DNA of 64,000 bases from positions 1-64,000 of the forward strand of contig JAQGDQ010002389.1 of NCBI GenBank assembly GCA_030141605.1, written 5' to 3'. A program made the position numbers and the translations under genes. This document shows, in pieces, positions 34,861 to 64,000 of the stretch. The DNA is from Tubiluchus corallicola. Taxonomy: Eukaryota > Priapulida > Priapulimorpha > Priapulimorphida > Tubiluchidae. How positions within the stretch are numbered: position 1 is the stretch's first letter; each line of letters begins with the position of its first letter. The notes beneath the pieces are model-generated. The model was not told where the DNA came from and did not search any database. It saw only the letters and a list, made by a program, of their open reading frames with translations.

Positions 34861-35727
34861 TTAAAATTCTTTTAATAAATCTTCTAAATCTAATTGATCA
34901 GCAGGAATAAGATATTCGATATCCGCGTTTTCAACAAGATCTGTAATATATTCAGCTTGTAAATTCATCAAAGCCTGGCGCTCTACAGCAGAATAAATCT
35001 CTGCCAAAGGAGGCGCTGACGCCATACGACTATCCTCAACATAAATGACATGCCAACCAAAAGGCGTTTCTACCGGCTCGTTTGAATAGGTGTTGATATC
35101 TATGGAAAAAGCCGCAGAAGCAAATTCCGGAATAAGAACATCTTGACGTATCCATCCTAAATCACCACCACTGTCCGCAAGAGGATCTTCAGAATAATCC
35201 TGCGCTAATCCTTTGAAACTCGCGCCTTCCTTCAATTGGTTAATAATAGCAATCGCATCCTCTTTCTCTGCAACCAATATATGACGTAAATGGCGCTCTT
35301 CTTGCTCAGATTCATAGGCGGAAAGCATATCATACGCTGTGTTGATTTCATCCTCTAAATCAGCCTTTTTTAAAAAATCCTGTAGCGCAAACTCACCCAA
35401 TAAAGCTCGCTTAAAATCACTTAAGCGCAATTGATAATCTTCTTCCTGATCAAAATTCAACGCTTTTCCTTCTTCTGCAAGAAGGGTTTCACGAACAAGA
35501 AACTCAATAATATTATTCATAACTACTTCCTGTTCAGCATTCTGAATACTTGATAAAAGGCGAGAAGCAACATACTTGAGCTCGTTTTTGGTATAAGTTG
35601 TATCATTAACGCGTACAATAACCGTGTCATCAGATAATTTACTCTCTGCTTGCGCAAATGCGTTAAACAACAGCGTTATCGATGCAATACCGCTGAGAGC
35701 CAAGAGAGCAATTCCTTTTCTTCTCAT
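34861..35727 (-). CDS. Periplasmic parvulin-type peptidyl-prolyl isomerase
   Basis: Periplasmic folding factor of the PpiC/SurA type, 288 residues. A signal peptide (about residues 1-27, ending FAQA) is followed by a helical SurA_N-like region and a rotamase domain (about 140-245) with RHLRHILVAEKEDA, FKGLAQDYSEDPLADSGGDLGW (read as YSEDP and SGGDLGW) and ETPFGWHVIYVED. A short acidic C-terminal tail follows. Likely helps outer-membrane protein folding. Confidence 0.88.
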   Translation of the reverse strand: MRRKGIALLALSGIASITLLFNAFAQAESKLSDDTVIVRVNDTTYTKNELKYVASRLLSSIQNAEQEVVMNNIIEFLVRETLLAEEGKALNFDQEEDYQLRLSDFKRALLGEFALQDFLKKADLEDEINTAYDMLSAYESEQEERHLRHILVAEKEDAIAIINQLKEGASFKGLAQDYSEDPLADSGGDLGWIRQDVLIPEFASAAFSIDINTYSNEPVETPFGWHVIYVEDSRMASAPPLAEIYSAVERQALMNLQAEYITDLVENADIEYLIPADQLDLEDLLKEF

Positions 35728-35918: not shown

Positions 35919-36242
35919 TTACAAAGGCTGCTTTTTACGCTCATAGCGCTTGTAAATCCTCTTTTGGTAACGATGATAGATAAAAATTGATAGTATGGTC
36001 TGTATAAAAAACCAAAAAACAAAAAAAATCCCCATTAAACGCTTTTTTTCCGCTCTAGGCTCGATAGAAGCCCTCTGAGACCAGACAGAATATTTGATCA
36101 CTTCCTCGGAAACAGCTGGCTTAAGCTCTTCTGTTATCTCAACATAAGAGGGAACAAAATCATCTTCCTGTGCATACGCTTCTGAAAAGAAACTTACGAT
36201 AAAAAAAGATAAACTTAGCACTATAACAATATTTTTTTTCAT
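35919..36242 (-). CDS. Cytochrome c1 remnant lacking the haem domain
   Basis: Third gene of the bc1 operon, only 107 residues instead of about 250-290. It has a signal peptide (about residues 1-24, ending SEAYAQ), a short acidic linker of about 30 residues, then a segment SVWSQRASIEPRAEKKRLMG and a transmembrane helix with basic tail, matching the C-terminal anchor of cytochrome c1 (AAEPxxExRKxxG plus helix). There is no CXXCH haem motif, no Cys at all, and no axial Met region. The frame is open with no stop codons, so it looks like a clean internal deletion. The start is at 36242 or 36248, 2-8 bases after petB. Function, if any, cannot be electron transfer to cytochrome c. Confidence 0.75.
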   Translation of the reverse strand: MKKNIVIVLSLSFFIVSFFSEAYAQEDDFVPSYVEITEELKPAVSEEVIKYSVWSQRASIEPRAEKKRLMGIFFVFWFFIQTILSIFIYHRYQKRIYKRYERKKQPL

Positions 36243-36249
36243 TCGCATA

Positions 36250-37458
36250 TCAGGATTTCCTCTTCTTACGTAAAAGAGCAACCGTAAGGGAAGGGGGAAT
36301 AGAGGCTTTTTTCTCAAGTGGCGTTATCCAATAAACAAGAATGAAAAAACTGAAATATCCCAAAAGCGCGATCCGCGTCAGCCATATCCATATATCAGCT
36401 TGCGGCATTGCTCCACAGATGAAAATTGTTAGGAAACAGACTAAAAAAAATCGAAGGAGCGCTTTGTAAGCAGGGCGAAAAATCGCACTATTATTAGGAG
36501 AATGATCAAGCCACGGCATAAAAAATAAAATCCCAACCATTGCTACGCATAAAATAAGAGCAAAAAATGGAGAAGGAACAGCACGAATAACAGAAAAAAA
36601 GCTCCAAAAATACCACTGAGGGCGAGCTGATAGAAAAGGAGAAAGAGGGTTAGACTCTGCGATAAAGCTGTCAGATAAAGATAAAATATCGCCAGAAAAC
36701 CAGAAAATCAGCCCCATAAGAATTGTCAGATATAAATTGATCGCGCAAAAGTCACGCACCGCAAACCATGGATAAAAAGGAACGTGATCCTGAGTAGGGA
36801 GTGTAATTCCTAAAGGATTATTAATACCTGCTTTGTGAACTGCAATAACATGAATAATAGTAATGATAATGATCAGAAAAGAGAAAAAAAGATGAAAGCT
36901 ATACATTCTCGCTAAAATTGCCTCATGAGGAACAGAGCCTCCCAAAACAAAAGAGGCAAGCGCTTCACCAATAAAAGGAACAGATGACAGTAAATGATAC
37001 AAGACAGTGGCTGCCGCGACCCCATTATGACTCCAAGAGAGAATTGATCCGAAAAAAGACGCCATAAATAAACAACAAAGAAGGAGCAAACCCGTAATCC
37101 AGACAATTTCTCGCGGCGCTTTATAACTGCCATAATAAAAAGCTTTGAAAAGGTGTAAGCCTAATATTATGAATAATAAAGAAGGAACAGTCTTGTGAAT
37201 TGCGAGAATAAACCATCCCCAAGAAATAGTTTCCTTGAAATCTAAAAGCGTTTGAAACGCATAATCCACATATGGAACATAATATAAAGAAAGTGAAAAC
37301 CCACTCAGAAAAAGAAAAAAGAGCGACAAAGAAGCTAATGCGCCTGTTGTCCATAACCAGTTAAGATTACGAGGCATACGGTGTTTCTTGAAATAGTTGA
37401 ATAATGGCTTTAAAGGAAAACGTTTTTCCAACCAATAAAAAAATAAAAAATATCTCAT
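36250..37458 (-). CDS. petB: Cytochrome b subunit of the bc1 complex, Qo site altered
   Basis: Membrane core of ubiquinol:cytochrome c reductase, 402 residues. All four haem ligands are present with canonical 14-residue spacing: His88 and His102 in the second helix (AIHKT and GLHLF), His189 and His203 in the fourth (SFHLF and IIHVI). YYGSYKAPRE is intact. The quinol-oxidation site is not: the PEWY motif reads PQWY at 280-283 (codon CAG for Gln281), and the normally conserved WGQMSFWGA of the cd1 region reads WSHNGVAAA. The protein is open from end to end and flanked by Rieske and the c1 remnant. Confidence 0.9.
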   Translation of the reverse strand: MRYFLFFYWLEKRFPLKPLFNYFKKHRMPRNLNWLWTTGALASLSLFFLFLSGFSLSLYYVPYVDYAFQTLLDFKETISWGWFILAIHKTVPSLLFIILGLHLFKAFYYGSYKAPREIVWITGLLLLCCLFMASFFGSILSWSHNGVAAATVLYHLLSSVPFIGEALASFVLGGSVPHEAILARMYSFHLFFSFLIIIITIIHVIAVHKAGINNPLGITLPTQDHVPFYPWFAVRDFCAINLYLTILMGLIFWFSGDILSLSDSFIAESNPLSPFLSARPQWYFWSFFSVIRAVPSPFFALILCVAMVGILFFMPWLDHSPNNSAIFRPAYKALLRFFLVCFLTIFICGAMPQADIWIWLTRIALLGYFSFFILVYWITPLEKKASIPPSLTVALLRKKRKS

Positions 37459-37480: not shown

Positions 37481-38044
37481 CTATGAGCTTTCCTCTGTTA
37501 TACGAATTGTGCTTTCATTCAGAAAATGCCAGGGAAGCGTATCTAAATCCCGCCTTGCTGGCCCTTTAGTCACTTTGCCATATTTGTCAAAATAAGAACC
37601 ATGACACCCACAAGACCAGCCTGACCACTCCCCTCCATGCACACGATTATACTCAACATGTAATGGACAGCCTAAATGCGTACAAAGCCCAATCACAAGC
37701 TGCCATTCTGAAGTATCCTCGCCATGACGAATAATATAAACAGGCTTGTTACGCCATTGTATAACTTTCCGATCACCAGACGCTATATCGGAAATATCAA
37801 TATCAATAAAAGCAGGAGAAGAAAATTCCAAAGCCGCTTTATTAACAACAGAAGAAGGAAATAAACTTCTTAAAAAAGGCCAGCTTAATAAAATAACACT
37901 TAAACTGCTCATAATCTGAATTGTTTTTTTTAACACATCTCGCCGAGCCGCCAGATTATCATTCGCAGGAGTTATAAATAATTTGTTAAAAAGCCTTCTT
38001 GTACGAGATAAAGAAGACGGTTTGTTATGGCGAAAAGTACTCAT
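37481..38044 (-). CDS. petA: Rieske iron-sulfur protein of the bc1 complex
   Basis: Ubiquinol-cytochrome c reductase iron-sulfur subunit, 187 residues. An N-terminal membrane anchor lies near residues 40-62, preceded by RRDVLKK in the place of a twin-arginine signal. Both cluster boxes survive: CTHLGC and CGCHGS (the usual Pro of CPCHG is Gly), so the two Cys and two His ligands and the disulfide pair are all present. First gene of the operon, 22 bases before petB. Confidence 0.92.
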   Translation of the reverse strand: MSTFRHNKPSSLSRTRRLFNKLFITPANDNLAARRDVLKKTIQIMSSLSVILLSWPFLRSLFPSSVVNKAALEFSSPAFIDIDISDIASGDRKVIQWRNKPVYIIRHGEDTSEWQLVIGLCTHLGCPLHVEYNRVHGGEWSGWSCGCHGSYFDKYGKVTKGPARRDLDTLPWHFLNESTIRITEESS

Positions 38045-54449: not shown

Positions 54450-56156
54450 TTAACGTGTTACACGATAAAAAATATTTCTATCATATGTTGTTTTTACACT
54501 TCCGTCTTCAAAAAGATACTCTCCGTGAATATAAGCACTATCAGATAAATAAAGTGGAATATCTTTCATCTCCTCTAATGCCGCAATAAGAGAAACTAAA
54601 GCAAACGCCTCTATAGAGGCAAATCTTGTATAAATATGATCAGAAGACTCTATAAAATACCCTTTTATATAACGATTCTTTAAAATATTTTCAGCAATAC
54701 GAAGTCCTAAATTCAAGTAAGCTTTTCGCTTTGTCGCATGAAAAATATCAATCAATAGAAAAATAGCTTTAGGATCATCAACTGTGGTTTGCATATTTAA
54801 ATAATGAACACCATGTGGATTAGCACCAATATCTCCCATCTCAAATCCCTTAACCATCTGTCGCAGCACACGCCATAGACGTATGTCCTTGGCTAATAAA
54901 TACCCACGAGCATAGGGAATAGCATGATCCAACAATAAAGTCGATCGTTTGAATTCTCTTCCTTTCTTCCCATAATATCCATCCCGCTGAAAAACTTGTC
55001 CCGTAAGATCCTTGCCATCCGTCCACATAGGAATAAGAGTATTTTCCTCAGCATCATATCCATATTGAGCAAACTTGACTAAACCCTCCAAAGCCCAATT
55101 CATCACCTCGGGATTGTTTAAAGCTTTTGAAAGATGCATATACACTAAACCAGACTCAGATAAAATAGTCTTCTGGTTTCTAAATAAAACGTTCCCCTCA
55201 TAGGCAACAGAACCAAACTCAGGTCCAAACTGCCGCTGCGCACGATCACCATACTTGGAGCTTGTATCCTTATCATTCTTAGGAGGCCAATCACGGCGCC
55301 TCGGAGAAGAATATTGATACACAGGAAGACCTGTCTCAGGATGGCGTGCCATAACATATTGTTTCGCTAAATGATGCCCCCAGGCTGCCGCTTGCTCATC
55401 CCTTGTGTATTTATAAAGCATACTTGCTGCGTAAATCAAATCGCTCCCAGCATTAATAAATGTCAATCCCTTTGTCTCTGCCATCTTAGGAAGAGAGTTC
55501 TGAACAACATCCACTTTTATAGCCTTGAAAATATCATCATTATAAACCTTGCTGTAAGAGCCATGGCGATTCATATCAAGCGTCTTCCAATCATCAACAT
55601 GCGCATTCCAAAGCGCTTTTAAAAGTCTAACTGTCTTGTCAGACTCAATCTGGTAGAAAAAATCATAATAAGGAAAATGGTTCTTTAATTCATGAACCAT
55701 ATTCTTATCATCTGGCCCTTCAAGCTCTAACGTATCTAAATTAATAAAACGATGTCCCCCCCAATACAAAAGACCATTCTCATCCTGATAATGATCAAAC
55801 ATATATTGAGTGATTTCTTTCGCTTTCTGCTCGTATAGATCCTTCCCTGTAATCCGTGATAAAATAACCAGCGTTTTCAAAAGCGTCTGCTGATTCGCAA
55901 AATTAGTGATCACAGCTTCACGACCATCTTCAAAACGCCATTTGACAAGCTCTCCCGTATCAATATTAATTCCATCCGCAAGCAAAGGAGAAGGCATGAC
56001 TGAACTATAACCATTTTTGAAAATTGTCTCCATAGCCTGCTCAACAGTTTGCACAATTTTTATTTCCCTTTCTGTAGCAAACCCTTGTGACCATCCCACA
56101 ATAAAAAACATACCGAAACAAAATAATAAGCCTTTTCCTGATTTTCTAAAGAACAT
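54450..56156 (-). CDS. pelW: Periplasmic pectate disaccharide-lyase, PL2 family
   Basis: Beta-elimination of polygalacturonate or its oligomers, releasing unsaturated digalacturonate. 568 residues, the family size, with a signal peptide (about 1-28, ending QGFA) that sends it to the periplasm. Family-typical stretches: ADGINIDTGELVKW, REAVITNFANQQ, GLLYWGGHRFINLDTLEL, DKNMVHELKNHFPYYD, LTFINAGSDLIYAASMLY, GSVAYEGNVLFRN and GKDLTGQVFQRDGYYGKKG. I recognise these as the Dickeya PelW / Yersinia PL2 type. Dickeya PelW itself is cytoplasmic and the Yersinia enzyme periplasmic; the signal here favours the latter mode. Last gene of the operon. Confidence 0.88.
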   Translation of the reverse strand: MFFRKSGKGLLFCFGMFFIVGWSQGFATEREIKIVQTVEQAMETIFKNGYSSVMPSPLLADGINIDTGELVKWRFEDGREAVITNFANQQTLLKTLVILSRITGKDLYEQKAKEITQYMFDHYQDENGLLYWGGHRFINLDTLELEGPDDKNMVHELKNHFPYYDFFYQIESDKTVRLLKALWNAHVDDWKTLDMNRHGSYSKVYNDDIFKAIKVDVVQNSLPKMAETKGLTFINAGSDLIYAASMLYKYTRDEQAAAWGHHLAKQYVMARHPETGLPVYQYSSPRRRDWPPKNDKDTSSKYGDRAQRQFGPEFGSVAYEGNVLFRNQKTILSESGLVYMHLSKALNNPEVMNWALEGLVKFAQYGYDAEENTLIPMWTDGKDLTGQVFQRDGYYGKKGREFKRSTLLLDHAIPYARGYLLAKDIRLWRVLRQMVKGFEMGDIGANPHGVHYLNMQTTVDDPKAIFLLIDIFHATKRKAYLNLGLRIAENILKNRYIKGYFIESSDHIYTRFASIEAFALVSLIAALEEMKDIPLYLSDSAYIHGEYLFEDGSVKTTYDRNIFYRVTR

Positions 56157-56167
56157 TTTTCCAATCC

Positions 56168-57289
56168 TTACGTTAACTTCTCCTGACCTGTATTTAAATT
56201 TCGCAAAATTTCCGCATAAGCCATCATGAAAATACCCACCCCTTTTCCGTCATTCTGAACAATAGGCTCTGAAATATAATAATCAAAAGAACCATCACGG
56301 TACGGATAAGTATCATCTATTCTCCCTAAACCAGCCATAACACATATATTTTCCAGCTGCTCATCCTTTAAAAACAGATCAACAACACTGTTAAAACTTT
56401 CCTGACCATACGAAAAATAAACCTCCGGCAAGTAACCAAGGCGCACTCCCTTCATTAAAGTATAGGAAAACATCAAAGAAGATGAGACTTCTATATAATT
56501 CCCTTCACGAGACTTCTGATCTATAACCTGATACCATAATTGCGTCTTATCATCCTGAAACGATAAAATGGACTTCATCGCCTCTCGCAACAAAAGCTCA
56601 AGATAACGATAATCTTCAAAAACCGTTTCTGACATAGCTTCCAAAATGTCAACCAGAGACATAACATACCATCCCATCGCACGCCCCCAAAAACATGGCG
56701 ATACACCCGTTTTAGGGTGAGCCCACCTCTTAAGCCGAGCTTCATCATAACCATGGTAATAAAGACCACTCTTCTCATCACGCATGAAAGAGTTAACATT
56801 ACGAATTTGACCAGTAATATCATAATAATGCCTCTTTCCAGTCCATAACGTATCATAACGCATGTAAAAAGGCTGCCCCATATACAAACCATCCAACCAA
56901 ACCTGATGAGGATAGGATTTTTTATGCCAGAAATTTCCAGACTGTGTACGAGGATGAGATTGAAGCTGGCTATAAAGTGTATCAAGAGCAATCTTAAACT
57001 TCTTTAGAGGATTTTCTTGATAAAGCGATACCAATGTATAACCAGGCTGAATATTATCAATATTAAAATCATCAAGCTTATAAGTCGGAATATCCCCGTT
57101 TGAACGAATCAGCTGATCAAAATAATGAAAAACAAAATCATAAAATTGCCGTTCCTTTGTAATCGTGTAAATATCAAAACTTCCCTTTAAAACACACCCA
57201 TCCTCATAACACCATTGACCATCCTTATAAAAAGAATAATTTTGAATATAGGCGTTGATAAAATCAGCTGATTTCTGAATTCTGCCCAT
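56168..57289 (-). CDS. Unsaturated galacturonyl/rhamnogalacturonyl hydrolase, GH105
   Basis: Removes the terminal unsaturated uronate from oligomers left by pectate or rhamnogalacturonan lyases. 373 residues, no signal peptide, so cytoplasmic. The YteR-type catalytic Asp is Asp133 in QVWLDGLYMGQPF, and Asp78 in DNIQPG matches the second conserved acid. RAMGWYVMSLVDILE is another family stretch. The start overlaps the upstream GH28 gene by 26 bases, implying coupled translation. Whether it prefers galacturonyl or rhamnogalacturonyl links is not clear. Confidence 0.9.
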   Translation of the reverse strand: MGRIQKSADFINAYIQNYSFYKDGQWCYEDGCVLKGSFDIYTITKERQFYDFVFHYFDQLIRSNGDIPTYKLDDFNIDNIQPGYTLVSLYQENPLKKFKIALDTLYSQLQSHPRTQSGNFWHKKSYPHQVWLDGLYMGQPFYMRYDTLWTGKRHYYDITGQIRNVNSFMRDEKSGLYYHGYDEARLKRWAHPKTGVSPCFWGRAMGWYVMSLVDILEAMSETVFEDYRYLELLLREAMKSILSFQDDKTQLWYQVIDQKSREGNYIEVSSSLMFSYTLMKGVRLGYLPEVYFSYGQESFNSVVDLFLKDEQLENICVMAGLGRIDDTYPYRDGSFDYYISEPIVQNDGKGVGIFMMAYAEILRNLNTGQEKLT

Positions 57290-58865
57290 AAGATATTTCT
57301 CCTAATAATTCTGTATTCTCTTGAATAATTGAGTTTCCAACCGCATTTTCTACTAACACATTTTCTAAAAACAACCCTTCTACATTATTGAGATATAACC
57401 CCATAGAAGATACAGGATCAAAAAAGCTCATCATTGCAGGATATCCACTAGAAGCATCCGCTTTCATAGAAACACGATAGTTTTTTATAACCAAATTTTT
57501 TATCTTTTTTTCCGGCAAACCATAAACAAAACCGGCCGCGTACTCCGCACCATGGCAAAGGATATCCTCAAGAAAAATATTCTTGATCTCCGGTGTGCCG
57601 GAATCAACCGGTAGAATCTCCTTTGTCCATATATATTCCGACTCTCCATTCGGATCACAGCAATAGAACGCATTAATGACAAAAGGCGTGCAAACAGAGT
57701 CCATAACGATATTCTTAATCGTGATATTATCAATAATTCCATCCTTACCACGACCACGGCACGTTTTAATACGAATACCCCTGTCTGTTTGATTCATCAC
57801 ACAATCTTTGACGGAAACATCTTTCACACCTCCGGCCATCTCGCTGCCAATAACAACGCCGCCATGACCCGATTCCATTAAGCAATTGGAAATCAAAAGA
57901 GAAGAAGAAGGGCAGCGGAGACGGCGCCCTAAATAAATCTTTCCCGACTTAATGGCAATGCAATCATCCCCAACAGAAAATCTAACTCCAGAAATACGAA
58001 CCATATGGCACGATTCAGGATTAATACCATCTGTATTTGGAGAACTATGTTGATTCTTGATAAATAAATTAACAAAAGTAAGAGACTCGGAAAAAATGGG
58101 ATGAACCGTCCAAGAAGGAGAATGAGAAAGCATAACACCCTCCACCAGAATATTCCGACATTTTGAGAAATAAAGTAAACGAGGACGCCAAGCGTCTATT
58201 TTCTCTTTCGGGGAATGCCACCAATTTTCAAAGCTGGCATTCCCATGAATAGACCCCTCTCCTGTAATCGTAACATCCTCTATATCAACCCCTGTTAATA
58301 AAGAGGCGAAACAATCCAGTGGATTTCCTTCCCACGATCCCAGATATTCTTCCTGGCTATAAGAATAATCTTCCAGTAAACCTGGTAAAATCGGATAAAA
58401 ATCACGATGAAAAAGCCCTTTTAATTCACTCCCTTTTTCAAGCAAAAGTGTAATATGACTCTTTAAAAAAAGAGGTCCGCTCATATATGTTCCTGGAGAA
58501 AAAACAATACAGCCATTTTTCGGGCAAGAGCTAATCGCTGCCTGCAAAGCCGCTGTGTCGTTCGATCTGCCATCTCCTACAGCACCAAACTTTTTGACAG
58601 AAACAACAGAAGTTTCCTCCTTGGTCTGAAAGGAATATGAAAATCTTTCCCCCTTATAGGCAACAGAGATATTATACAAACTTCCTGGGCTTAAGCGAAA
58701 AAGTGTAAAAACATTCTGTCGCGTCTTAAAAGCAAAAGAATTTCCAAGAAAAATATCTTTTTCTTCCACCGTCTTAAAACATCCCTCACCAGACAGCTCA
58801 AAACTTGCTGTGCGTGATGTCGTACTAATCAACTCTAAAGATAATGTCATAGAGAGAAACCCCAT
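57264..58865 (-). CDS. Exo-polygalacturonase, GH28 family
   Basis: Hydrolyses terminal units of (oligo)galacturonates. 533 residues: an N-terminal beta-sandwich-like module (1-85), then the right-handed beta-helix beginning KKFGAVGDGRSNDTAALQAA. GH28 catalytic residues are all visible: Asp279 in SPNTDGINPES, Asp300-Asp301 in GDDCIAIKSG, His334 in SGHGGVVIGSEM and the RIK motif (365-367). No signal peptide, as in cytoplasmic exo-enzymes such as those of Thermotoga, so it likely acts on imported oligomers. The ATG at 58850 (MTLSLEL) is an alternative start. Confidence 0.93.
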   Translation of the reverse strand: MGFLSMTLSLELISTTSRTASFELSGEGCFKTVEEKDIFLGNSFAFKTRQNVFTLFRLSPGSLYNISVAYKGERFSYSFQTKEETSVVSVKKFGAVGDGRSNDTAALQAAISSCPKNGCIVFSPGTYMSGPLFLKSHITLLLEKGSELKGLFHRDFYPILPGLLEDYSYSQEEYLGSWEGNPLDCFASLLTGVDIEDVTITGEGSIHGNASFENWWHSPKEKIDAWRPRLLYFSKCRNILVEGVMLSHSPSWTVHPIFSESLTFVNLFIKNQHSSPNTDGINPESCHMVRISGVRFSVGDDCIAIKSGKIYLGRRLRCPSSSLLISNCLMESGHGGVVIGSEMAGGVKDVSVKDCVMNQTDRGIRIKTCRGRGKDGIIDNITIKNIVMDSVCTPFVINAFYCCDPNGESEYIWTKEILPVDSGTPEIKNIFLEDILCHGAEYAAGFVYGLPEKKIKNLVIKNYRVSMKADASSGYPAMMSFFDPVSSMGLYLNNVEGLFLENVLVENAVGNSIIQENTELLGEISYGQNSEIS

Positions 58866-58896
58866 ACCAAAGAATAGTTATTATATGCGCTAGATC

Positions 58897-60189
58897 CTAG
58901 CGAGAGCGTTTAAGGCGCCTTAAAATCCGATTGCCATCACTCACCATCTTTTCAGCGGCTTGCTCAACGGACATTTTGTCATATCCAAGGCTTTCTATAA
59001 TCTCTTCATAAAGCGCATACATTTGTGCATTTTCAAAAAATGGTGATTCAGGAAGCCCCTTATTATCACGAACATATAAATATCCTTTGTAAACAAGATC
59101 ATTCTCATCAAGAAACCCCTCTTCTCTCAAAATTGTAGAGGCTCTACGGCTAAGTGGAATGCCTCGGATTGTCTTAAGAATTCTTACAGCATCTGGGTCA
59201 TTTATCAGAAAATCTAGCAGAAGAGCCGCTTCTTTAGGGTGTTTGGTATTTTTGTTAATCGAAAACATCATGGAAACCTTCTGATAAATTCCTGAATCTT
59301 TCGCTCCTTCTATCGTAGGATAATCCGCAAGAATAATTTCCTGCCCTGGCTTTAATGTCGCAACAAATTTAGGAATCGACGTATTCCATTGTGGAGAACC
59401 AGCAAATTCACCATTAATCCATGCCCCCGCTTCGTTAATAACAACATTGCCAAAAGATGAGCGATATTTCATAGGAGGCAGCGCATGGCTATCGATAAGA
59501 GATTGATAAAAACGAAATCCGTCAAGCCATTCGCTAACAGAATGATTCATGCGGCCATCTTGATTGATAATGGGCTTGCCTGTCTTTTGCACTAAATAAG
59601 AACGAATAAGAAAAACTCTCTCCCGCTCATCCGCATCAAACGGATAATATTTATTGCCTAAACGCTTAGTAAATTGCCTTCCCGCTACAGAAAGATCATC
59701 CCATGTCTTCGCAAAAGAAGCGTCCGCCTTCTCATAAGTCGTTTTGTTGAGATAAAATAAACGCGCCGTTAACGCTGTCGGTATACCGTTTAATTTGTCG
59801 TTGACCGTAACGGATTCTAAATCCTTTTTATCAAACTGGCTGAGATCAATGACATCCCCTAGGGTATTAAGATCATAAAACCCATCACCTTTCGCTGAAA
59901 AAATAGGAATCCACGGATAGTTAATCTGCATTAGATCAGGCGCTGTTCTCCCAGCAATCTGCGTTGTGATCTTTTCAAAATGCCCCCCCCAACCAGTATA
60001 TTCTGCCTTTACCTTAATATGAGGGTATTTACTTTCAAAAAGACGAACGGCTTGAATCGTCGCTTTATGGCGAGAATCACCCCCCCACCAAGAAAAACGA
60101 ATTTCAACCTGATCTTGAGAAAATGATAACGAAATGCCCACCATTGTAAATAATGAAAATACCAGTAAAAAAATACCTTTTTGTCTCAT
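58897..60189 (-). CDS. togB: ABC sugar-binding protein for oligogalacturonides (TogB-like)
   Basis: Periplasmic binding protein of the CUT1 sugar family, 430 residues with a signal peptide (about 1-25, ending SFSQ). RFSWWGGDSRHKATIQAVRLFE, in parts, is the solute-binding-protein family 1 start, and FTKRLG, LLDFLINDPDAVRIL and RGIPLSRRA are other markers. TogB recognition is by operon context; the exact ligand, di- or trigalacturonate, is inferred. Confidence 0.88.
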   Translation of the reverse strand: MRQKGIFLLVFSLFTMVGISLSFSQDQVEIRFSWWGGDSRHKATIQAVRLFESKYPHIKVKAEYTGWGGHFEKITTQIAGRTAPDLMQINYPWIPIFSAKGDGFYDLNTLGDVIDLSQFDKKDLESVTVNDKLNGIPTALTARLFYLNKTTYEKADASFAKTWDDLSVAGRQFTKRLGNKYYPFDADERERVFLIRSYLVQKTGKPIINQDGRMNHSVSEWLDGFRFYQSLIDSHALPPMKYRSSFGNVVINEAGAWINGEFAGSPQWNTSIPKFVATLKPGQEIILADYPTIEGAKDSGIYQKVSMMFSINKNTKHPKEAALLLDFLINDPDAVRILKTIRGIPLSRRASTILREEGFLDENDLVYKGYLYVRDNKGLPESPFFENAQMYALYEEIIESLGYDKMSVEQAAEKMVSDGNRILRRLKRSR

Positions 60190-60211
60190 GAGTAATTCCT
60201 CCCATAGAATC

Positions 60212-61348
60212 TTACGAATCTAGATTTTTTTCTGTTTTATGATCAAATAGATAACATTTTTCTAAATCAAAGAAAAAACGTCCCTTCCCTAATATCTTTT
60301 TTTGCAAAATACTATCTGTGATATGAGAAGACGACTCCCGTACAATCGTATTGTATCCTGCAAAATCAAAATAAATAAAAATCTCATGCCCCATATTTTC
60401 CACAATTCTGATCGGGCACTCGACAGTATTTTCCTGAACAGAATTGCCCTCATTCATAAAAGAGATCGCTTCGGGTCTTAACGCAACAAAGATTTTCTTT
60501 TCCGAGTAATTCTTTAAACTCTGCGCTTTCTTATCAGAAAAACGGAAATCAGAACCGGAAATATTGACATAAAGATCCCCCCCTTTGGAAAACAAGCTTC
60601 CTTCCATCATATTAATCGCCGGAGAGCCGATAAACTCTGCGACAAATTTATTCGCAGGCTTGTTATAAAGAGCATAAGGTGTATCAGTCTGCTGTATCTC
60701 ACCCAGTTTCAATACACACACGCGATCCGCCATCGTCATCGCCTCAACTTGATCATGGGTAACATAAACAGATGTGGATGGCTGGCCATCACGCCGCAGA
60801 TTATTATGAAGCTCAGTTAAACGAATACGCATAGCGGCCCGTAATTTCGCGTCCAAGTTAGAAAGAGGCTCATCAAAAAGAAATACCTCCGGCTTCTTCA
60901 CAATCGCACGACCAACAGCAACCCGTTGAGCCTGACCACCAGAAAGCTGCTTGGGTAAACGATCCATCAAATCTTCAATCTCAAGATTTTTCGCAGCCTC
61001 AGATACACGCTTGTTAATCTCATTTTCAGGCAACTTTGATAAACGCAAACCAAAATCTAAATTCTGAAACGTTTTCATATGAGGATAAAGTGCGTAATTC
61101 TGAAAAACCATCGCAATACCACGCTCTTTGGGCAAAAGATTATTGACCACTTTTCCAGCAATCCTAATTTCCCCGCCGGAAATACTCTCTAAACCAGCAA
61201 TCATCCGTAATGTCGTTGATTTAGCACATCCAGATGGACCAACAATCACCATAAACTCACCATCTTTGATCTCAAGGTCAATGCCATGAACAGCCTTAAA
61301 TCCATTAGGATAACGTTTCTCAACTTTATTTAAAATAACCTCTCCCAT
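60212..61348 (-). CDS. togA: ABC sugar transporter ATP-binding protein (TogA-like)
   Basis: CUT1-type ATPase of 378 residues; the ATG at 61348 after AAAGGAGAAT begins MGEVILNKVEKRYPNG, as in MsmX/UgpC proteins. The frame continuing to 61492 overlaps the permease gene and is not coding. Walker A reads GPSGCAKST, with Ala where Gly is usual, and LSGGQAQRVAVGRAIV, FLFDEPLSNLDAKLR and YVTHDQVEAMTMADRV complete the ATPase. A TOBE regulatory domain occupies the last 100 residues. Confidence 0.93.
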   Translation of the reverse strand: MGEVILNKVEKRYPNGFKAVHGIDLEIKDGEFMVIVGPSGCAKSTTLRMIAGLESISGGEIRIAGKVVNNLLPKERGIAMVFQNYALYPHMKTFQNLDFGLRLSKLPENEINKRVSEAAKNLEIEDLMDRLPKQLSGGQAQRVAVGRAIVKKPEVFLFDEPLSNLDAKLRAAMRIRLTELHNNLRRDGQPSTSVYVTHDQVEAMTMADRVCVLKLGEIQQTDTPYALYNKPANKFVAEFIGSPAINMMEGSLFSKGGDLYVNISGSDFRFSDKKAQSLKNYSEKKIFVALRPEAISFMNEGNSVQENTVECPIRIVENMGHEIFIYFDFAGYNTIVRESSSHITDSILQKKILGKGRFFFDLEKCYLFDHKTEKNLDS

Positions 61349-61377
61349 AATATTCTCCTTTATTAGTAGCTTTAAAA

Positions 61378-62289
61378 TTATCCCTTTACACCGGTCGTCA
61401 TAACACCACCAACAAAATATCGCTGTGCGAAAAAGAAAATTACTATCGATGGTAAAAGCGATAATGTTGACATCGCTAAAACACGATTCCACTCCACTGC
61501 TGAACTCACATCAATCGACATCTTTAAAGCTAACGCTATTGGATATTTTTCAACGCTTGATAAATAAATCAGCGGCCCCATAAAATCATTCATTGACCAC
61601 ATAAATTGAAAAAGCCCAACCGCAATGATCGCAGGCTTAATAATCGGAAAAATAACATAAATTAAAACTTGAAACGAATTACAGCCATCAATAAATGCTG
61701 CCTCTTCCATATCGCGCGGAATCCCACGAAGAAACTGTATTAACATGAAGACAAAAAATGCATCCGTCGCGAACGCAGAGGGAATATAAAGTGGCATAAA
61801 AGTATCAAGCCAACCAAATTCTCGGAACATTAAATATTGTGGTATACGCAATACCGTCTGAGGAAGTAATATAGTCGCGATTAATGTCGCAAATAAAAAT
61901 TTCTTAAACGGTATATCAAAACGCGCAAAGCCATAGGCAACCAATGTTGCAGAAACAATCGTGAAAATAACTTTCGGAATGATAATCTGAAACGTATTTA
62001 AAAAATAAGTAGTAAACGTATACTCGCTTCCTGTCTTCCAACCCTCAATATATCCATCTAAAGTCGGATCCGTAGGAAATGGATGAATCTCGGAAAAAAT
62101 CTGATAATTCTGCTTAAATGAAGCGCCAACAAGCCAAATAAGCGGGTATAACATAATAAAACCAATAATAATCAGTATCGTATACCGGATATAAGCGTTG
62201 ATTTTCTCCTTTCTCCTCGTCTTTAAAATTTCTTCTGAAATATTGCCTTCTTGAGAAGGTGTGAAATATTCTGTTGCTACGTTTGTCAT
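61378..62289 (-). CDS. togN: ABC sugar permease, second subunit (TogN-like)
   Basis: Inner-membrane permease of 303 residues with six helices. The EAA coupling loop is EAAFIDGCNSFQVLIYVIFPIIKPA, in parts EAAFIDG and FPIIKPA, which contacts the ATPase. A basic N-terminal tail leads to the first helix near residue 33. Encoded 3 bases after togM and 29 before togA. Confidence 0.92.
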   Translation of the reverse strand: MTNVATEYFTPSQEGNISEEILKTRRKEKINAYIRYTILIIIGFIMLYPLIWLVGASFKQNYQIFSEIHPFPTDPTLDGYIEGWKTGSEYTFTTYFLNTFQIIIPKVIFTIVSATLVAYGFARFDIPFKKFLFATLIATILLPQTVLRIPQYLMFREFGWLDTFMPLYIPSAFATDAFFVFMLIQFLRGIPRDMEEAAFIDGCNSFQVLIYVIFPIIKPAIIAVGLFQFMWSMNDFMGPLIYLSSVEKYPIALALKMSIDVSSAVEWNRVLAMSTLSLLPSIVIFFFAQRYFVGGVMTTGVKG

Positions 62290-62292
62290 ATC

Positions 62293-63174
62293 CTATTTCT
62301 CCTTCTCTCCAGAATAAAACACCCAGTATTTTGACGAACGGAAAACAATGGCTGTAAAAATACCTACAATGATAAATAAAACCCATGATAAGGCCGCACC
62401 ATAGCCCATATTGAAATATTTGAAAGATTCCTCGTAAATCATCAGCGATAACAAATAAGTGGACTTTAAAGGGCCCCCGCCTGTAATGATATAAGGGCCA
62501 TTAAATTCCTGAAATGCCTGGACAGTCTGCATAATAAAATTAAAAAAGATCACAGGCGTAATAATCGGAATCGTAATCTTAAATAAAACCTGCCATTTAG
62601 ACGCGCCATCAATAGAGGACGCCTCGTACAATGAAGCTGGAACATTCTGAAGAGCGGCAAGAAAAATAACCATGGCTGAGCCAAATTGCCAAATTCTTAA
62701 AAGAGTAACCGTAAATAAAGCATAACCCGGTGTTCCAAGCCAATTAACTGCCTCAAAACCAAACGTTCCAAGCACCATGTTCATAAGACCATCAATAGAA
62801 AAAACATACCGCCATAAAACTGCTATAGCGACACTGCCTCCTAAAATCGACGGTATATAATAAGCCGACCGAAAAAAGTTTATCCCACGTAATTTGAAAT
62901 TAAGAACAAACGCTATTAATAAAGCAAAAGCTAGCTTCAAAGGAACAGTCATAAAAACATAAATTAATGTCACAACTAGTGATTTCATAAATAAATCATC
63001 TTCAAATAACATATATTCATAATTTTCCAAACCCAAAAAAAGAGGTGGATCCATTAAATTATAATCTGTAAAACTCAGAACAAATGATGTAAAAAATGGA
63101 TAACATGTAAATGCCATCAACCCCAAGATATAGGGGAGAACATAGGCAAAGCCTAGCCACTTGTTTTCATACAT
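62293..63174 (-). CDS. togM: ABC sugar permease, first subunit (TogM-like)
   Basis: Inner-membrane permease of 293 residues with six helices. YVLPYILGLMAFTCYPFF, in parts, is the usual first helix; the EAA loop is EASSIDGASKWQVLFKITIPIITP, in parts EASSIDGAS and IPIITP. Pairs with TogN to form the translocation path. Lies 52 bases after the GH4 gene in the same direction. Confidence 0.92.
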   Translation of the reverse strand: MYENKWLGFAYVLPYILGLMAFTCYPFFTSFVLSFTDYNLMDPPLFLGLENYEYMLFEDDLFMKSLVVTLIYVFMTVPLKLAFALLIAFVLNFKLRGINFFRSAYYIPSILGGSVAIAVLWRYVFSIDGLMNMVLGTFGFEAVNWLGTPGYALFTVTLLRIWQFGSAMVIFLAALQNVPASLYEASSIDGASKWQVLFKITIPIITPVIFFNFIMQTVQAFQEFNGPYIITGGGPLKSTYLLSLMIYEESFKYFNMGYGAALSWVLFIIVGIFTAIVFRSSKYWVFYSGEKEK

Positions 63175-63226
63175 CTTTATACCTCCCTTTAATTTATGAC
63201 TCGTTTATAGCGCCAACTCTACTTCT

Positions 63227-64000
63227 TTACGGCCATCCGGATCCGGCAGGAAGACAATGTCGCATGTTGCTATACATCTCCTCAAATAAATCACGATTTT
63301 CTACCAAAGACAGAGAAACAGCCATAGGATCGTTAAGAAAAATATTAAACACCCTTTCCTTATCACAAGAGGAAACAGCTTCCACCAAACCGTTCTGGTT
63401 ACTGATATGGGACAAAGTGATATCTTCAATAACTTCAGGAAGGCGGCCAGCCACTACAGGACGAACAGAATCCTTCACAAAAACCGCATTCGTCTCAACA
63501 ATAGAGTCTAATGGAAGAGCTTTCATTTGACCGTGGTTAGGGAAATTAACATTGCCGCAATAACTCTCTATACCCGAAAGCGCTAGCAGTTGCTTGATAA
63601 AATCCTCACCGCTCTTTTTTAAGGTTATCGCCTCCTCACCAGAAGCTATTTTACGAGAGCGCTCCCTCAGTGCATCTCTATTTTTTATTCGCCAAGAAAC
63701 CGGCGTTAAGCCAAAATCCCATTCTTTGAAATTCCGTAAATACCAGCTCTGTGGAAAAAAATCCACCAAATGCCGATCCCCTGCCGCAGCTACAGTATGA
63801 AACCGCTTGTATAAATCAAACTTTACCCTTTCTCGCGAAGAAAAATAATGACTTTTTTCATTGGAAGGAGACTCGTCCTTGCTTATCCATATCCCCTCCT
63901 CAGAATAAACATCCACAAGATGCTCCCAGAGAGGGATTAAATCACGATCTTTCCAACGAATCTTATCAACCCAGGTAAAATGGTTAATACCTAACACATT
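63227..64000 (-). CDS. Glycoside hydrolase family 4 enzyme, C-terminal part
   Basis: The gene runs off the right edge; about 257 C-terminal residues are visible, read up to the last bases without a real start. LGINHFTWVDKI is the GH4 motif in which the Asn-His pair helps bind Mn2+ and substrate, and VNFPNHGQMKALPLDS with VETNAVF is the C-terminal GH4 pattern. GH4 enzymes use NAD+ in a redox hydrolysis. Given the operon, an alpha-galacturonidase is the likely activity; alpha-galactosidase or alpha-glucuronidase cannot be excluded. The NAD-binding half and CNxP motif lie outside the window. Confidence 0.85.
   Translation of the reverse strand, partial: NVLGINHFTWVDKIRWKDRDLIPLWEHLVDVYSEEGIWISKDESPSNEKSHYFSSRERVKFDLYKRFHTVAAAGDRHLVDFFPQSWYLRNFKEWDFGLTPVSWRIKNRDALRERSRKIASGEEAITLKKSGEDFIKQLLALSGIESYCGNVNFPNHGQMKALPLDSIVETNAVFVKDSVRPVVAGRLPEVIEDITLSHISNQNGLVEAVSSCDKERVFNIFLNDPMAVSLSLVENRDLFEEMYSNMRHCLPAGSGWP

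Follow-up and report, generated by a model that had tools for sequence, protein, structure and literature searches.

The third gene of a petABC operon on a bacterial contig, C1997, encodes a signal peptide and a c1-type C-terminal anchor with no haem domain, and the cytochrome b encoded ahead of it has largely lost the conserved residues of its periplasmic side, where the Qo pocket and the Rieske-docking surface lie, and has kept its haem ligands and its cytoplasmic Qi side. We propose that these genes may encode a bc1-derived complex in which the Q-cycle has stopped, leaving a remodelled b-haem/Rieske module that would be linked to quinone through Qi; this reading of the sequences is plausible, if somewhat short of probable.

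RESULTS

The petABC operon lies on a bacterial contig within a eukaryotic assembly

The window, that is, the whole stretch of DNA analysed here, runs from the start of contig C1997 (212,950 bases, 39% G+C) to its base 64,000; the contig is contained in an assembly of 343.5 Mb and 2,344 contigs. We regard the assembly as eukaryotic because its sole cytochrome c1 is intron-split, with four separate pieces on contig C2105. C1997 is bacterial and gene-dense, and 168 frames of at least 100 amino acids (overlapped frames removed) cover 88% of it. CarB of this contig was compared with 5.8 billion proteins; among the best 120 of 8000 scored candidates, its nearest named relatives were Rhodospirillales and other Alphaproteobacteria, with 66–67% identity at most. 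In a tree of 44 rows that took in 43 of the 80 loci, the CarB end branch was 1.17 (median, 0.15). From this placement, the petABC bacterium is an alphaproteobacterium for which no close relative was found among the 5.8 billion proteins. We leave its order unclaimed because the placement comes from one gene with a long branch.

As shown in Table 1, petA, petB and the short petC follow one another on the minus strand in the usual petABC order. There was no sign that the parvulin-type prolyl isomerase encoded downstream of petC is part of the complex. Elsewhere, C1997 encodes succinate dehydrogenase and UbiA (ubiquinone synthesis). Rfam gave no matches on the window, and scans for promoters and terminators performed about as they did on shuffled sequences (14 versus 12.3 and 2 versus 2.7, respectively). 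In three regions (window positions 54450–64000, C1997:97322–106966 and C1997:199799–209487), several clusters appear, by eye and from the starts of their frames, to encode glycoside hydrolases, transporters for sugars and dehydrogenases of the uronate type, as would suit a sugar-rich lifestyle. At C1997:132731–135898, two adjoining membrane proteins contain long pentapeptide-like repeats and are similar to each other by eye.

Table 1. Positions of the petABC genes, their neighbour and the protein segments discussed in the text (window numbering)
Feature	Position	Strand	Basis
petA, Rieske iron-sulphur protein, 187 aa	37481..38044	-	TIGR01416, PDB Rieske matches, ligand columns
Rieske cluster box I, CTHLGC, petA residues 121-126	37667..37684	-	alignment
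Rieske cluster box II, CGCHGS (usual CPCHGS), petA residues 145-150	37595..37612	-	alignment
petB, cytochrome b, 402 aa	36250..37458	-	Pfam PF00033/PF00032
SWSHNG for PWGQMS, cd1 region of Qo pocket, petB residues 141-146	37021..37038	-	usual residues each in >=95% of 145 references
PQWY for PEWY, Qo quinol-binding Glu lost, petB residues 280-283	36610..36621	-	alignment
petC, signal peptide + linker + C-terminal anchor, 109 aa	35919..36248	-	frame, hydropathy, anchor alignment
petC signal peptide, residues 1-26, ...AYA|QE	36171..36248	-	sequence and hydropathy; cleavage site by eye
petC c1-type transmembrane anchor, residues 71-93	35970..36038	-	alignment and hydropathy
Parvulin-type prolyl isomerase, next gene downstream of petC	34861..35727	-	Pfam PF13616/PF00639

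petC is an intact short gene

The petC frame may begin at a first ATG at 36248 (109 amino acids) or a second at 36242 (107 amino acids), and its stop ends at 35919. The petB stop, at 36250, is one base ahead of the first ATG (TGA-T-ATG). Two hydrophobic stretches (residues ~3–26 and ~70–92) fall within a layout that consists of a signal peptide, a linker of ~45 residues, a single hydrophobic helix and a basic tail; the product has no cysteine, no CXXCH and no haem domain. A preliminary description of this DNA had presented petC as the third gene of petABC, with signal peptide and anchor and none of these c1 elements, and the minus-strand open reading frame confirmed that account. Its statement that the frame is clean was likewise borne out, as start and stop are clean and in-frame codon usage is coding-like (0.100 bits/codon, compared with -0.081 and -0.057 in the other two frames and an average of 0.125 in 15 small genes of C1997). 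The chance of a 109-codon open frame under the base composition is 0.0007.

The petC anchor resembles the tail of cytochrome c1

General searches with the short petC were silent: Pfam and NCBIfam returned no c1 match at E <= 1, the PDB gave no such match at E <= 10, and among 5.8 billion proteins there were five word-sharing candidates, none of them at E <= 1. The c1 homology of the anchor therefore rests on position and on directed alignment. When petC was aligned by the Smith-Waterman method to a profile built from the c1 tails of 38 relatives, it scored 39.3, compared with a mean of 18.7 (sd 3.1, maximum 33.8) for 300 segment-wise shuffles of petC and a best score of 28.9 for the 167 other C1997 proteins. 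With an HMMER profile of 15 c1 tails, petC ranked first among 799 contig frames at a weak score (E = 0.025, 10.3 bits) that barely exceeded the top score (9.7 bits) among 2000 shuffles; an entry at E = 0.028 was the same frame read from stop to stop, and the next independent frame stood at E = 0.092 (8.5 bits). The weak score is probably due to four extra residues that petC carries between the conserved Trp and Glu-Pro. Just before the anchor is a c1-like stretch, EV..Y..W....EP...KK..G, and both the position of petC behind petB and its topology accord with a c1 anchor. On these sequence features, we take the petC anchor to be c1-derived. The earlier proposal that the electron-transfer domain was lost and the signal peptide and anchor were kept is supported.

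Cytochrome b has kept its cytoplasmic half and lost much of its periplasmic half

We aligned petB with 145 references, namely 114 of the sequences P0001–P0120 (<500 amino acids), 30 loci (L119–L148) from the sample of alphaproteobacterial genomes described below and Rhodobacter sphaeroides cytochrome b; loci L149–L153 were kept out of this set. A position was counted as near-invariant if 95% or more of the references agreed there (104 positions). With side boundaries that were first taken from bovine helices and set after the loss pattern was visible, petB was found to keep 35 of the 41 near-invariant positions on the N-side (cytoplasmic, Qi) and 24 of the 63 on the P-side (periplasmic, Qo/Rieske-docking), so that 6 and 39, respectively, were lost (Fisher p = 2e-6). 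The counts were identical when helix mid-points of an AlphaFold2 model were used as boundaries, and p stayed between 5e-8 and 0.0014 in 1000 draws in which the boundaries were shifted by up to 7 residues. Conservation thresholds of 90, 98 and 99.5% gave p = 3e-7, 4e-5 and 0.018, and when the side labels were slid round the petB sequence, the observed difference was reached in 5 of 404 shifts. The model (mean pLDDT 87.1, pTM 0.85) predicted an intact fold, with the lowest confidence at residues 251–280, followed by 141–150.

The same contrast appeared in overall identity to R. sphaeroides, which for petB was 0.38 on the N-side and 0.28 on the P-side (difference +0.10); the other 144 references averaged 0.53 and 0.67, with N minus P ranging from -0.24 to +0.05. 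None of these 144 relatives came near the petB pattern of P-side loss, the next worst (L144) having lost 14 of 66 P-side positions. Among the loci held outside the references, a divergent one (L150) had lost 12 positions on each side, out of 40 on the N-side and 63 on the P-side, and two weak, non-bc1-like ones (L152 and L153) had lost 10 of 20 and 14 of 25 on the N-side and 26 of 41 and 22 of 41 on the P-side. The best relatives of petB are merely 35–37% identical to it.

All four haem histidines are present in petB (H97, H111, H198 and H212, R. sphaeroides numbering). At Qi, H217, D252, W45, N40 and E126 are kept, and K251 is replaced by Arg. The losses include Met140, Tyr147, PWGQM except its Trp, Thr288, Ile292, Glu295, Tyr302, Lys329 and Met336, and the substitutions at Qo comprise Y147S, E295Q, Y302F, T288P, K329P and PWGQM to SWSHN. 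The Glu of the PEWY motif is conserved in 138 of the 145 references; Val replaces it in 7 and Gln in none. In lists of named residues for these sites, which were partly picked after the pattern was seen and are illustrative only, petB keeps 8/8 haem ligands and packing glycines, 15/17 Qi/N-side residues and 7/27 Qo/docking residues. The remodelled b/Rieske complex anticipated in the preliminary description thus finds support in a cytochrome b whose Qo side is largely lost and whose haem ligands and Qi side are kept.

The Rieske protein retains its cluster ligands

The petA product scored 106.2 bits with NCBIfam TIGR01416 (cut-off, 97.4) and contains all of the cluster and disulphide residues, four Cys and two His (C121, H123, C126, C145, C147 and H148). 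In an alignment with 30 relatives, 59 columns were conserved in 90% or more of them; petA keeps 29 of these columns, and 5 of its 30 losses fall in a deleted stretch. This stretch is 24 residues long in 27 relatives, and its length in the remaining three is 26, 26 and 35. The residue that hydrogen-bonds the cluster, Tyr165 in the bovine protein, is Phe in petA. The available text of PMC10715153 reports the Tyr165Phe change in the long Rieske proteins found in acetous bacteria and associates it with lower activity. The neck between anchor and head of petA is seven residues longer than in all 30 aligned relatives.

Searches for a complete c1 and for further cases of a short c1

The preliminary description had named an intact c1 elsewhere in the genome as a finding that would overturn it. 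We found no bacterial match to PF02167 in the 343-Mb assembly; its four matches are all parts of the one intron-split gene on C2105, which we take for the nuclear c1 of the host and reject as the missing c1 gene.

In a sample of 385 alphaproteobacterial genomes, drawn evenly from the class with one genome per sampled species and holding no known close relative of the petABC bacterium, cytochrome b was matched in 316 and c1 in 314, and we found no second case of a short c1. Three of these genomes had cytochrome b without a c1 match. Two (G159 and G291) were rejected as further cases, since their contigs end within a cytochrome b that has a normal PEWY motif; the third (G235) was rejected as a weak match only (E 2.7e-7, 23% identity). 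One genome, G193, had a c1 match and no cytochrome b match. A scan of genome contigs with cytochrome b gave 18 stretches, none of which was confirmed. Among the PMC literature matches listed, there was no case of a c1 that was lost, truncated or reduced to its anchor; PMC12923049 was set aside as a precedent, since its available text concerns c1 knock-down in a parasite.

Respiratory partners in the assembly

PF00115 (COX1, haem-copper oxidase) had no match in the assembly, which may hold the genome of the petABC bacterium incompletely. Mitochondrial DNA seems to be absent as well, the only cytochrome b found being the petB studied here. A cydAB operon is located on contig C1464 (44 kb; alphaproteobacterial by eye), and composition is its only tie to the petABC bacterium. 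In tetranucleotide usage, the 4.5-kb piece that holds cydAB agrees with C1997 (r 0.637, compared with a mean of 0.633 for 4.5-kb pieces of C1997), whereas a 10-kb piece containing a repeat array disagrees (0.396, compared with a minimum of 0.679 for 10-kb pieces). This array (C1464:25001–35000, about 1–2800) is CRISPR-like, with 40 copies at a 66-bp period, and lies close to mutL, glucose-6-phosphate isomerase and cydBA. A second cydAB, on C1995, belongs to a different bacterium, as judged by eye from the genes around it. A NuoH gene (PF00146, 432 bits) and cytochrome c maturation-type genes (PF01578) were found on separate contigs, C2126 for the former and C926 and C723 for the latter. The respiratory genes on C1995, C723, C926 and C2126 suggest that the eukaryote assembly contains several bacteria. 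On C1997, the CXXCH frames of at least 60 amino acids number four, of which one is an ISC ferredoxin and the other three run antisense to long genes, and a blue-copper pattern was seen in five frames of 55–84 codons, none convincing.

DISCUSSION

A normal Q-cycle requires Qo plus a c1-type acceptor. As Qo is largely replaced here and the c1 acceptor is gone, a normal Q-cycle looks impossible. The loss pattern suggests that a familiar energy enzyme has been reshaped rather than merely decaying. Neutral decay would be expected to affect both sides of cytochrome b alike; this is not seen, and selection has therefore acted. Judged from the sequences, it has acted, probably over a long period, on the haems, on the Qi half and on the Rieske centre in the absence of the output side.

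In the remodelled complex that we propose, cytochrome b would exchange electrons with ubiquinone at the cytoplasmic Qi site via haems bH and bL, and the Rieske head would be held on the other side as a partner that is either fixed or altered. The c1 anchor may have survived as a helix without which the b-Rieske core could not assemble. Cytochrome bd, and not the bc1 branch, would oxidise ubiquinol to oxygen, and the module might tune or bridge the quinone pool instead of reducing cytochrome c. In favour of such a module are the P-side bias of the losses, the retained Rieske ligands, the coding-like frames, succinate dehydrogenase and UbiA on C1997, cydAB on C1464 and the missing COX1 in the assembly, together with the Zymomonas precedent described below; on the other side stand the conflicting composition of C1464 and the cytochrome c maturation-type genes on the unassigned contigs C926 and C723. 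A more specific form, for which the sequences make a possible case that we put below the general one, is a "Qi-only" module of a kind as yet undescribed, in which the output side (Qo pocket, docking surface and c1 haem) would have been dismantled together and Qi and all of the ligands would have stayed under selection. Against the proposed module, the retained Qi-side residues may serve haem binding and folding alone.

One alternative is a structural scaffold, in which the b-Rieske-anchor core transports no electrons and holds respiratory enzymes together, chiefly Complex I. The same role is proposed for the bc1 of Acetobacteraceae in the available text of PMC10715153, and the assembly does contain the NuoH gene, albeit on a contig that we do not assign to the petABC bacterium. 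A scaffold has no obvious need of Rieske ligands and Qi-type residues, and the published cases, as that text presents them, have lost such ligands; we consider this explanation rather unlikely, if still a serious one.

Less likely again is a relic, that is, an operon that became redundant once cytochrome c oxidase was lost and is now decaying, with the c1 deletion as the first large step and relaxation recent. Dead-end bc1 branches in other Alphaproteobacteria (PMC6861446, available text) make such a course conceivable; cytochrome b is unusually divergent, and from its long CarB branch the lineage looks fast-evolving. The three frames are intact, however, with coding-like codon usage, every haem and cluster ligand is retained, and the losses fall mostly on one side of the membrane; the changes on the c1/Rieske side of cytochrome b are old-established, which argues against simple decay as well as against an assembly slip.

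It is improbable that the operon encodes an altered but working quinol oxidase, in which a rebuilt Qo would feed the Rieske centre and a soluble acceptor would replace c1. The retained Rieske ligands would fit, as would the existence of c1-less Rieske/cytochrome b complexes in Archaea; the Qo substitutions speak against it, as do the lack of COX1 in the assembly and the failure of the CXXCH and blue-copper frames of C1997 to provide a credible acceptor. An artefact, with the c1 domain dropped in assembly or a full c1 in an unassembled part of a bacterial genome that may be incomplete, is very improbable, since the petC frame, start and stop are clean, the sole c1 in 343 Mb is the intron-split gene, and cytochrome b is altered on its c1/Rieske side beyond what an assembly slip can cause.

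The operon resembles the canonical alphaproteobacterial bc1 of the R. sphaeroides type in gene order, cytochrome b fold, haem ligands, Qi side, Rieske ligands and c1-type anchor, and differs from it in having no c1 haem domain, in the large loss of the Qo pocket and docking surface, and in a Rieske protein without the 24-residue stretch and the cluster-adjacent Tyr. In this petABC, evolution has split the two quinone sites: most of one half has been erased, and the other has been retained. Should the complex be made, it would reveal what use a cell has for the Rieske centre and the Qi half without a Q-cycle, and whether assembly needs the c1 anchor. Archaea, as distant lineages, also have complexes of Rieske protein and cytochrome b without c1; these use other acceptors and have a working Qo site.

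Acidophilic Acetobacteraceae (Acidocella and Acidiphilium) have a "deranged" bc1 in which the haem bH ligands and the Rieske ligands or gene are lost and c1 is intact; its proposed role is to stabilise Complex I, with reference to a paper on the Paracoccus supercomplex (PMC10715153, available text). According to the same text, its genes persist in spite of a complex regarded as non-functional, its place is taken by ubiquinol oxidases, and acetous relatives of those acidophiles have the Rieske Tyr165Phe change; these points recall the present case, in which cytochrome bd would be the substitute. In its losses, the deranged bc1 so described is a mirror image of this petABC, which keeps the bH and Rieske ligands and loses c1 and Qo. 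Zymomonas mobilis and Gluconobacter oxydans have a "dead-end" bc1 branch that lacks cytochrome c oxidase; Zymomonas relies on cytochrome bd as its sole terminal oxidase, and a cytochrome b mutant of it showed altered antimycin resistance and altered bd reduction kinetics (PMC6861446, available text). A bc1 without a partner oxidase is there called a dead end of obscure function. That text mentions neither a missing c1 nor a lost Qo site in these branches, and the petABC described here is one step further.
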